From Candidatus Halobonum tyrrellensis G22 (GTDB lineage: Archaea; Halobacteriota; Halobacteria; Halobacteriales; Haloferacaceae): a stretch of 49,476 bases of DNA. Shown here in pieces: positions 42,194 to 49,476 of this stretch (its first letter is position 1; each line of letters begins with the position of its first letter). Under the pieces are notes generated by a model. The model did not search any database. It had not been told where the DNA came from and saw only the letters and a list, made by a program, of their open reading frames with translations. The position numbers and the translations under genes were made by a program. The DNA is taken from NCBI RefSeq assembly GCF_000495475.1, contig NZ_ASGZ01000007.1:1-49476 (forward strand). The letters run 5' to 3'.

Positions 42194-42877
42194 GTGTTAT
42201 CGGTCGAACTGCACAGCCACTCCGAACTGTCGCACGACGGCCGCGACCCGGTCGACCTGCTGCTCGAACAGGCGGCGGGCGTCGGGCTCGACGCGCTCGC
42301 GGTGACCGACCACGACCAACTCGACGCCAGTGTCGACGCCGCCGCGCGCGCAGACGACTACGGGCTGGTCGGCATCCCCGCCATGGAGGTGACCAGCGCC
42401 GCCGGCCACGTGCTCGCGTTCGGCATCGACGAACCCGTCGACCCCGGCCAGTCGTACGACGACACGCTGGCGGCGATACGGGCGGCGGGCGGCATCGCGG
42501 TGATCCCACACCCGTTCCAGAAGTCCCGTCACGGCGTCGCACCGCACGTCTCCGACGAGCAGTTGGCCGGCGCCGACGCCATCGAGGTGTACAACTCCCG
42601 GCTGCTGACGGGGCGGTCGAACCGGCAGGCCCGGGAGTTCGCGCTCGCACACGACGTCCCGATGACCGCGGGCAGTGACGCCCACATCGCCGAGATGGTC
42701 GGGCAGGCCGTCACCGAGGTGGGCGCGACAGAGCGGTCGGTCGACGCCATCCTCGACGCCATCAGGGACGGCCGGACCAGCGTCGTCGGCCAGCGCACAC
42801 CGTGGCACGTCTCCTTCCGGCAGGCCGCCGGCGGGGCCAAACGCCGCGTGCAGCGACGCCTGTCGGAGCTGATCTGA
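42194..42877 (+). CDS. PHP-domain phosphoesterase
   Basis: A 227-residue protein with the four PHP motifs: ELHSHSELSHDG (residues ~5-16), AVTDHDQLDA (about 36-45), VIPHPFQKSRHG (about 102-113) and TAGSDAHIAEM (about 157-167). These coordinate three metal ions in polymerase and histidinol phosphatase domains. Size and motif order match stand-alone PHP proteins that act on phosphate esters of nucleotides or sugars. The GTG at 42194 starts the first strand directly and has a T-rich TATA-like box (CTTTTCTAC) about 22-30 nt upstream. The asparagine-synthetase-like gene begins 12 bp after its stop, so both are probably one transcript. Confidence 0.9.
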   Translation: MLSVELHSHSELSHDGRDPVDLLLEQAAGVGLDALAVTDHDQLDASVDAAARADDYGLVGIPAMEVTSAAGHVLAFGIDEPVDPGQSYDDTLAAIRAAGGIAVIPHPFQKSRHGVAPHVSDEQLAGADAIEVYNSRLLTGRSNRQAREFALAHDVPMTAGSDAHIAEMVGQAVTEVGATERSVDAILDAIRDGRTSVVGQRTPWHVSFRQAAGGAKRRVQRRLSELI

Positions 42878-42889
42878 GGGCCGCCGCGC

Positions 42890-43975
42890 GTGACTCGTAT
42901 CGACGGGGCCGACCCGGGGACGGTCCGGACGGCGCTCGCGGCGGCGGACCCGCTTCCCGGGACCGACGGGTTCGCCGGCGAGTGCGACGGGACGCTCGTC
43001 CGCGACGTGCTCGGCCGCCGGCCGCTGTTCGTCGACGCCGACTCGGAGGCGTGGGCGTTCGACCCGACCGACCTCCGGTCGCCGGAGACGTTTCCCGCGG
43101 GCCACGCCCGCGCCGACGGGGCGACCGAGCGGGTCTGGTCGCTCCCCGACCCCGCGCCCGCCCCGGCGGCGGAGGCGCTCGCGGCCGTCGAGCGAGCGGT
43201 CCTGACCGCCGTTCGCGGCGCCGACCCCGCGGGGACCGCGGTGGCGTTCTCCGGCGGCGTCGACTCCGGGCTGGTGGCCGCCGGCCTCCCCGACGCGCCG
43301 CTGTACGTCGCCGGCTTCGAGGGCTGTCACGACGTCGAGGCGGCGCGGGCGGCCGCCGACGCGATGGGGCGGGCCGACGACCTCCGGGTCGTCGAGGTGA
43401 CGCACGACGACCTGCGGCGGGCGGTGCCCGAACTCGTCGCCGCGACCGGTCGGACCAACCCGATGGACGTCTCCATCGCCCTGCCGCTGTACCTGGTAGC
43501 CGAGCGTGCGGCCGCCGACGGCCACGACCGACTCGCGGTCGGGCAGGGCGCGGACGAACTGTTCGGCGGCTACGCCAAGGTGGTCGACCCCGTCGACGAC
43601 GGCCGGGTCGACGCCGACACCGTCCGCGGCGCGCGCCGCGAGACGCTGCTCGCGCTCCCCGACGGGCTAGAGCGGGACGTGTTGACCCTCCGCGCCGCGG
43701 GGGTCGACCCCGTCGCCCCCCTGTTGGGCGACGAGGTGGTGGCGGCGGCGCTCGAACTCCCCGCCGACCTGCTCGCCACGCCCGACGAACGGAAGGTGGC
43801 GCTCCGGCGGGCCGCCGCGGGCGTCCTCCCCGAGTCGGTACGGGCGGCGGAGAAGAAGGCGGTCCAGTACGGCACGTACGTCTCGCGGGAACTCGACAGG
43901 CTCGCCCGGCGCGCGGGGTTCAAACGGCGGATGGAGAACCACGTCGGCCGGTACGTCGAGTCGCTGGTCGAGTGA
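42890..43975 (+). CDS. Asparagine-synthetase-like protein with degraded glutaminase domain
   Basis: A 361-residue protein. Residues ~115-345 are the ATP-pyrophosphatase domain of class B asparagine synthetase: VAFSGGVDSGLVAAGL (about 117) is the PP-loop, MDVSIALPLYLVAE, and GADELFGGYAKV (about 220) the conserved Asp/Glu loop. The N-terminal ~95 residues keep only a trace of the class II amidotransferase fold (LVRDVLGRRPLFVD, then AWAF) and lack the nucleophilic Cys2 start (MCGI) and most of its length. So it cannot take ammonia from glutamine as AsnB does; it should use free ammonia, get it from a partner, or form another amide. It follows the PHP gene by 12 bp. Confidence 0.85.
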   Translation: MTRIDGADPGTVRTALAAADPLPGTDGFAGECDGTLVRDVLGRRPLFVDADSEAWAFDPTDLRSPETFPAGHARADGATERVWSLPDPAPAPAAEALAAVERAVLTAVRGADPAGTAVAFSGGVDSGLVAAGLPDAPLYVAGFEGCHDVEAARAAADAMGRADDLRVVEVTHDDLRRAVPELVAATGRTNPMDVSIALPLYLVAERAAADGHDRLAVGQGADELFGGYAKVVDPVDDGRVDADTVRGARRETLLALPDGLERDVLTLRAAGVDPVAPLLGDEVVAAALELPADLLATPDERKVALRRAAAGVLPESVRAAEKKAVQYGTYVSRELDRLARRAGFKRRMENHVGRYVESLVE

Positions 43976-48438: not shown

Positions 48439-48601
48439 GCAACATCGGCAGTACCGTCCGCTTCTCCGGCGGTCTCATCCGCTTCTCCGACGGCACCGTC
48501 CGATTTCGGCCGCTCGGACGCGACCCGGACCGAACGCGCGGCGGCGCTCGCCGAGGGGGTGTATCGAAACCCTTACTCTCCGCCCGCGGCACCTCCCGGG
48601 T

Positions 48602-48883
48602 ATGACAGACGCCGGGAGCGTCGACCCCGAGGAGGTGCGGCACGTCGCGGACCTCGCGCGGGTTGACCTCGACGAGGCGGAGGTCGAGGAGTTCGCCGCG
48701 CAGTTCTCGGACGTGCTCGACTACTTCGAGGCGCTCGACGAGGTGCCCGAGGTGGACGAGGAGCCGGACCTGGTGAACGTGATGCGGCCCGACGAGGTGC
48801 GGGAGGGGCTCTCACAGGAGGCGGCGCTGGCGAACGCCCCGGAGACGGAGGAGGGGTACTTCAAGGGTCCGCGGGTGTCGTAG
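48602..48883 (+). CDS. gatC: Aspartyl/glutamyl-tRNA amidotransferase subunit GatC
   Basis: A 93-residue small subunit of the GatCAB complex, which turns misacylated Asp-tRNA(Asn) and/or Glu-tRNA(Gln) into the amidated forms. HVADLARVDLDEAEVEEFAA is the family's N-terminal helix and ANAPETEEGYFKGPRV the extended C-terminal arm that wraps the other subunits. The stop TAG is directly followed by the gatA ATG, the usual gatCA order; gatB is not in view. Confidence 0.95.
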   Translation: MTDAGSVDPEEVRHVADLARVDLDEAEVEEFAAQFSDVLDYFEALDEVPEVDEEPDLVNVMRPDEVREGLSQEAALANAPETEEGYFKGPRVS

Positions 48884-49476
48884 ATGGCGGCCGACGAGGA
48901 GGACCTCAACGCGTTCGTGACCCGCGAGACGGTCGCGGGCGCCGACGACGGACCGCTCGCGGGCCGGACTGTCGCGGTCAAGGACAACATCTCGACCGAG
49001 GGGCTGCGCACCACCTGCGGGTCGGCGATGCTCGACGACTACGTGCCGCCGTACGACGCGACGGTCGTCGAGCGGGTGACCGCCGCGGGCGCCGACGTCG
49101 TCGGCAAGACCAACATGGACGAGTTCGGCATGGGCGGGACGACGGAGACGTCGGCGTTCGGCCCGACCAAGAACCCGGTCGACCCCGACCGCGTCCCGGG
49201 CGGGTCGTCGGGCGGGTCCGCCGCGGCGGTGGCCGCCGGCGAGGCGGACCTCGCGCTCGGCACCGACACCGGCGGCTCGGTGCGCAACCCCGCCGCGTTC
49301 TGCGGCGTCGTCGGCATCAAGCCGACGTACGGGCTGGTGTCGCGGTACGGTATCGTCGCGTACGCCAACTCGCTCGAACAGGTCGGCCCGCTCGCGCCCA
49401 CCGTCGAGGGGGCGGCGGAACTGCTCGACGTCATCGCCGGCCCCGACGAGAACGACGCCACCACCCGGGAGGCGGG
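48884..49476 (+). CDS. gatA: Aspartyl/glutamyl-tRNA amidotransferase subunit GatA, 5' part
   Basis: The first 197 codons of the amidase-signature subunit; the gene runs off the right edge. TVAVKDNI supplies the catalytic Lys, and [15 protein letters not shown] with [13 protein letters not shown] supplies the cis-Ser and nucleophile Ser of the Ser-cisSer-Lys triad. GatA releases ammonia from glutamine and channels it to GatB. ATG 48884 abuts the gatC stop, so translation is coupled. Confidence 0.96.

Follow-up and report, generated by a model that had tools for sequence, protein, structure and literature searches.

Glutamine-dependent asparagine synthetases, exemplified by E. coli AsnB (1ct9) and human ASNS (6gq3), join an N-terminal Cys glutaminase to an ATP-pyrophosphatase (ATP-PPase) domain with the PP-loop SGGxDS. 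Beta-lactam synthetase (1mc1) and carbapenam synthetase (1q19) share the AsnB fold, have an inactive glutaminase and close a ring, and the catalytic Glu (Glu-364 in human, Glu-348 in E. coli) is replaced by Tyr in both, as read from the CarA row and the beta-lactam synthetase row of our alignments. The QueC-type and ArtA nitrile synthetases belong to the same superfamily and also have the ATP-PPase fold, and QueC uses ammonia without a glutaminase. In this study, a stretch of 49,476 nucleotides from the haloarchaeon Candidatus Halobonum tyrrellensis G22 (the window) was analysed, in which the following features were identified:

42194..42877, forward strand: PHP / PHP_C metallohydrolase of the CehA/McbA type (Pfam and NF038032 profile scans)
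42890..43975, forward strand: predicted AsnB-fold AMP-forming synthetase of 361 aa with no working glutaminase (sequence, Pfam, AlphaFold2 and structure comparison)
42890..43174, forward strand: vestigial glutaminase of about 95 aa, comprising the second half and lacking the Cys (structure and sequence alignment to AsnB)
43250..43267, forward strand: PP-loop SGGVDS, residues 121-126 (sequence)
43541..43573, forward strand: GQGADELFGGY, residues 218-228, with Gln-219 at the human ASNS Glu-364 position (sequence alignment)
43853..43876, forward strand: clade signature KKAVQYGT, residues 322-329, its first Lys corresponding to human Lys-466 (sequence alignment)
48530..48880, forward strand: gatC, GatC over the Pfam cut-off, start approximate (Pfam)
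48902..49474, forward strand: 5' part of gatA, about 190 aa, cut by the contig end, start approximate (profile match)

The gene order in the window is thus php, synthetase, genes on the opposite strand (NUDIX-like, transcription-factor-B-like by eye, and one further gene), then gatC and the partial gatA (GatC and GatA together at 48554-49471), the last two bearing out the presence of GatCAB genes claimed in an earlier, sequence-only reading of this DNA. For the synthetase, the GTG at 42890 was taken as the start: it is the first start codon to follow an in-frame stop and lies 12 bases past the PHP stop, which agrees with the spacing given there. The likely start of the PHP gene is the GTG at 42194, and the scanned PHP protein (P0001, 226 aa) starts one codon later, at 42197 (TTA). 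Elsewhere in the same genome, a second contig carries a stretch (G000:C12:58054-58425) that matches positions 338-462 of the GatA model and is possibly the other end of gatA. A full-length AsnB-like protein is also encoded (G000:C2:85607-86746, in a 734-aa frame), with a likely start VSGIV and Ser at the Cys position.

The synthetase scored 97.3 bits against Pfam Asn_synthase (cut-off 21) and carries both the PP-loop SGGVDS and GQGADELFGGY, hence the synthetase domain is intact as first proposed. Against the asparagine synthase equivalog TIGR01536 it reached 94.2 bits, below the cut-off of 267.1, a score that the missing half also lowers. The AlphaFold2 model, built from 39 sequences, had a mean pLDDT of 96.1, and its best PDB match was E. 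coli AsnB (Z 32.2 over 343 residues), followed by beta-lactam synthetase (29.9), human ASNS (29.1), carbapenam synthetase (26.9) and TsnB9, all with Z of at least 23.9; the first unrelated family was LarE (Z 11.6). The model thus shares its fold with AsnB and beta-lactam synthetase; the Gln-219 of the window synthetase is neither the Glu of the one nor the Tyr of the other. The likeness to QueC was a weak profile match (3bl5, E 0.0056), and ArtA (9lei, Z 9.3) was level with unrelated rows. The first 95 residues superpose on AsnB and ASNS from residue 70 onward, indicating that the first half of the glutaminase including the nucleophile Cys is missing, in line with the earlier description of a Cys-less domain shrunk to about 95 residues. 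The protein therefore retains the fold and PP-loop of AsnB/ASNS and lacks their N-terminal Cys glutaminase. Motif RDxxGxxP[LIV] was retained in 39 of 43 haloarchaeal rows, and the S, G, G, D and S of the PP-loop were invariant across the 39 rows of alignment A2. PADLOC gave no match for either the PHP protein or the synthetase, and a defence-system identity was therefore rejected. A search of open-licence papers, covering titles and the beginnings of abstracts, returned nothing on this archaeal clade.

The window synthetase is not a chance occurrence, since 136 of 145 Halobacteria genomes, among them that of the window itself, have relatives. In the phylum sample, 264 of 294 genomes had matches, mostly one per genome; all 51 genomes in the order of a Thermococcus record had a member covering nearly the full query length, and 119 of 150 genomes in the class of a Methanoplasma record matched (Thermoplasmata-type; a class-level count). 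Among Thermoproteota, 101 of 121 genomes matched at E 0.001, a count given no weight as many rows were weak or partial, and a control search of Sulfolobus acidocaldarius gave no PF00733 match. Named records include Methanocaldococcus, Methanobrevibacter, Thermococcus, Bathyarchaeota, Archaeoglobaceae and Thermoplasmatota. In a tree of the synthetase domain, 87 archaeal rows formed one clade (100/100, the bootstrap not yet settled) against 7 outgroup rows, 5 bacterial and 2 paralogues. Rows that keep a Cys glutaminase are those of Thermococcus, Methanocaldococcus and Methanobrevibacter, along with some others of the methanogen phylum; in other rows the domain is full in length but Cys-less, and elsewhere it is short or absent. 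The description of the enzyme as lacking its glutaminase is therefore true of the window gene but is a lineage trait, as other clade members keep the Cys domain. The tree requires at least 5 switches between the Cys and Cys-less states, and judged from these sequences the glutaminase has eroded repeatedly within the archaeal clade. Three loci of the methanogen phylum (L112, L129 and L135, family f11) have a longer remnant, and L112 and L129 begin MSGIVG, with Ser replacing the nucleophile Cys; by its sequence, this form is a putative intermediate of domain decay.

Active-site residues were counted over 107 archaeal rows from a sequence alignment, with human ASNS numbering in which Cys is residue 1; 43 of 80 named loci were examined, 9 of these 43 were left out of the residue count as distant outliers, and L125 and L127 were dropped as no ORF had been chosen for them. 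Shared with AsnB and ASNS are Lys-466/449, Arg-403/387 and Asp-367/351: Asp-367 was retained in 106 of the 107 rows, Glu-368 and Lys-466 in all 107 and Arg-403 in 104. With the residues for ATP and pyrophosphate kept and conservation this strong, the alignment argues for an enzyme rather than a relic. The differences from AsnB/ASNS, besides the glutaminase cut to its Cys-less second half, are a Gln for Glu-364/348, no Arg at the Arg-339 position and an extra Lys after Lys-466. Gln occupies the Glu-364 position in 104/107 archaeal rows (and in 6 of the 9 outliers), in contrast to Glu in 6/6 bacterial relatives. Arg-339 is found in 0/107 archaeal rows (1/116 if outliers are included) and 4/6 bacterial ones. 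The second Lys directly after Lys-466 is present in 104/107, and three residues further the Gln-Tyr pair never varies (107/107). The Asp-400 position holds Asn or Gln in 92/107 archaeal rows, and bacterial rows vary there too (Asp in 1/6). The Gln is shared by all 10 listed members that retain a Cys glutaminase, thus the swap probably predates the loss of the glutaminase. One full-length AsnB-like paralogue of a methanogen (L139) likewise has GQGADE. One haloarchaeal full-length AsnB relative, read from its printed motif, has no Arg at the Arg-339 position either, so loss of this Arg is no proof of a new substrate.

These residues bear on whether the protein is a diverged, ammonia-dependent asparagine synthetase that supplies free Asn alongside the Asn-tRNA pathway, which is what its fold and best sequence relatives would suggest. 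Its neighbours, the Asn-tRNA amidotransferase genes and purB, all concern aspartate chemistry, and the order of the Thermococcus record, with a member in each of the 51 genomes, uses AsnRS, which needs free Asn. Against this stand the TIGR01536 score, the absence of Arg-339 and the Gln: human E364Q and E364A are reported inactive with aspartate, ATP and ammonium (NH4Cl; PMC6748925). Furthermore, AsnRS over the cut-off was found in 0 of 30 haloarchaeal genomes tested, which together with the Gln swap lowers the likelihood of a plain asparagine synthetase, and agrees with the earlier view that the main route to asparagine probably lies elsewhere. Substitutions at other positions might compensate for the Gln, and we regard an asparagine synthetase as a plausible but less likely identity for this protein.

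Gene order points towards translation. gatC lies 3' of the synthetase in 28 of 74 non-haloarchaeal loci, always on its strand (28/28), with a median gap of -4 to the first possible start of gatC and 25/28 gaps within -53 to +48, values that the choice of gatC start influences; the order asn-gatC-gatA-gatB was found in 24/74, and in the other 46 of the 74 no gatC adjoins the synthetase. The fetched pieces, which reached 8 kb to either side of the synthetase or in some cases less, contained both gatC and gatA in 28/40 haloarchaeal and 23/40 other loci, and in haloarchaea they were downstream on the same strand in 27 of those 28. Compared with PHP, gatCAB is the older and wider neighbour. GatCAB does not itself need the synthetase: GatA was present in 79 of 80 genomes and over the cut-off in 23 of 24 chosen genomes without the synthetase, and a dependence was rejected for this absence of co-loss. 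Other translation neighbours over the Pfam cut-off, each in a single lineage, were a diphthamide synthesis protein, Sua5, ribosomal S8e and a class II tRNA synthetase; neighbour names were assigned by eye, apart from ten checked by Pfam. In marine group III archaea (L190, L207), the synthetase follows a diphthamide synthesis gene and begins where the TATA-binding protein gene stops, and Sua5 is the third gene downstream (L190 by Pfam, L207 by eye). A basic C-terminal patch (a 50-residue span of +3 or more) was present in 40/40 haloarchaeal members, and was dropped as a sign of RNA binding because the ordinary haloarchaeal AsnB relatives also carry it (3/3).

purB is next to the synthetase on the same strand with a gap below 100 in 10/74 non-haloarchaeal loci, and divergent in 3 Bathyarchaeota, an adjacency that is compatible with general metabolism too, and topA also shares the neighbourhood. 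A role outside translation, as an amide synthetase for some small metabolite or cofactor, with the proximity of gatCAB an accident of old gene order, would accommodate purB and topA as well as the presence of mostly one copy in 264 of 294 genomes, as expected of a core cofactor. The tight coupling to gatC in many families, with gatC and gatA near in haloarchaea, nevertheless exceeds a loose order, and we consider this explanation improbable.

On balance, and with moderate confidence, we favour an active amide synthetase that forms AMP and uses ammonia, acts on a substrate other than aspartate in all probability, and serves a function linked to translation. Its observed basis is the predicted fold, the kept ATP and pyrophosphate residues, the lost Cys half, the Gln swap and the gene order, from which we infer adenylation, ammonia use, a non-aspartate substrate and the translation link. 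As an ATP-pyrophosphatase (AMP-forming) derived from a glutamine-dependent AsnB, the enzyme would bind ATP at the PP-loop and adenylate a carboxylate, probably not that of aspartate, and ammonia would attack the adenylated carboxylate to give an amide. Since its own glutaminase is gone, the ammonia would come from solution or from another enzyme, GatA being a candidate source. The role in translation is suggested because the frame of the synthetase abuts or overlaps that of gatC, a gene of the Asn-tRNA amidotransferase, in many archaea.

The adjacent PHP gene had led to the proposal of a small pathway shared with the synthetase. Its product was over the cut-off for both Pfam PHP and PHP_C and scored 110.9 bits against the CehA/McbA domain model NF038032 (cut-off 80). 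The search for conserved context proposed at the time gave a divided answer: PHP lies directly before the synthetase in 40/40 fetched haloarchaeal loci, with gaps of -4 to +37 in the 18 of these measured (values influenced by the start choices for the homologues), but no such PHP was found at 40/40 non-haloarchaeal synthetase loci (tblastn 1e-4). Moreover, among 9 Halobacteria genomes without the synthetase, 8 retain a PHP homologue (64-73% identity) and one has only a weaker match. As PHP persists where the synthetase is lost, a private two-gene pathway is not supported, and a two-step haloarchaeal route through PHP and the synthetase appears highly improbable despite the constant adjacency. 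In 5 of 8 fetched pieces from the synthetase-less genomes, PHP is within about 2.5 kb of gatC-gatA, indicating that PHP and gatCA can outlast the loss of the synthetase. In two of these five, from genomes of one haloarchaeal genus (L141, L142), at most 3 bases separate the PHP match from the start of the gatC match, which looks like a clean excision of the synthetase gene. One haloarchaeon (L154, G117) has a divergent PHP (56%) beside the synthetase and a closer homologue (63%) elsewhere.

Within the favoured reading of a translation-linked amide synthetase, one specific substrate can be put forward, although we rate it as a long shot. By analogy with QueC acting on its own substrate, the archaeal clade may be the missing enzyme that converts the carboxymethyl group of the tRNA wobble uridine cm5U34, a product of Elp3, with ATP and ammonia to the amide ncm5U and then the nitrile cnm5U; both syntheses would be expected to pass through a reaction of this group with ammonia and ATP. 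The cnm5U-forming enzyme is stated to be unknown (PMC7694415), and the same was reported for the ncm5U-forming enzyme. Carriers of cnm5U are haloarchaea, Methanococcus maripaludis and Methanocaldococcus jannaschii (PMC7694415); Thermococcus kodakarensis, in which cnm5s2U has been measured, is among the reported carriers and Thermoplasma acidophilum is a reported carrier of ncm5U. As far as these few reports go, the carrier species and the clade overlap, but PMC7694415 also gives cnm5U as absent in other archaea, without a list, which counts against this candidate. Neither Elp3 test lent support: an elp3 neighbour was found at 0/130 synthetase loci, and co-occurrence was uninformative, Elp3 being present in 80/80 genomes; that 24 of these lack the synthetase also counts against the candidate. 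In addition, gatCAB makes Asn-tRNA, whose anticodon starts with G, not U, which counts against a wobble uridine.

The synthetase, present across most sampled Halobacteriota and beyond, best matches models named asparagine synthase, although nearly all aligned members carry the residue that abolishes asparagine synthesis in the human enzyme. Should it act on a tRNA or some other component of translation, it would close a gap in what is known of that process in archaea; if the product is Asn after all, the view of essential residues in asparagine synthetase would change.
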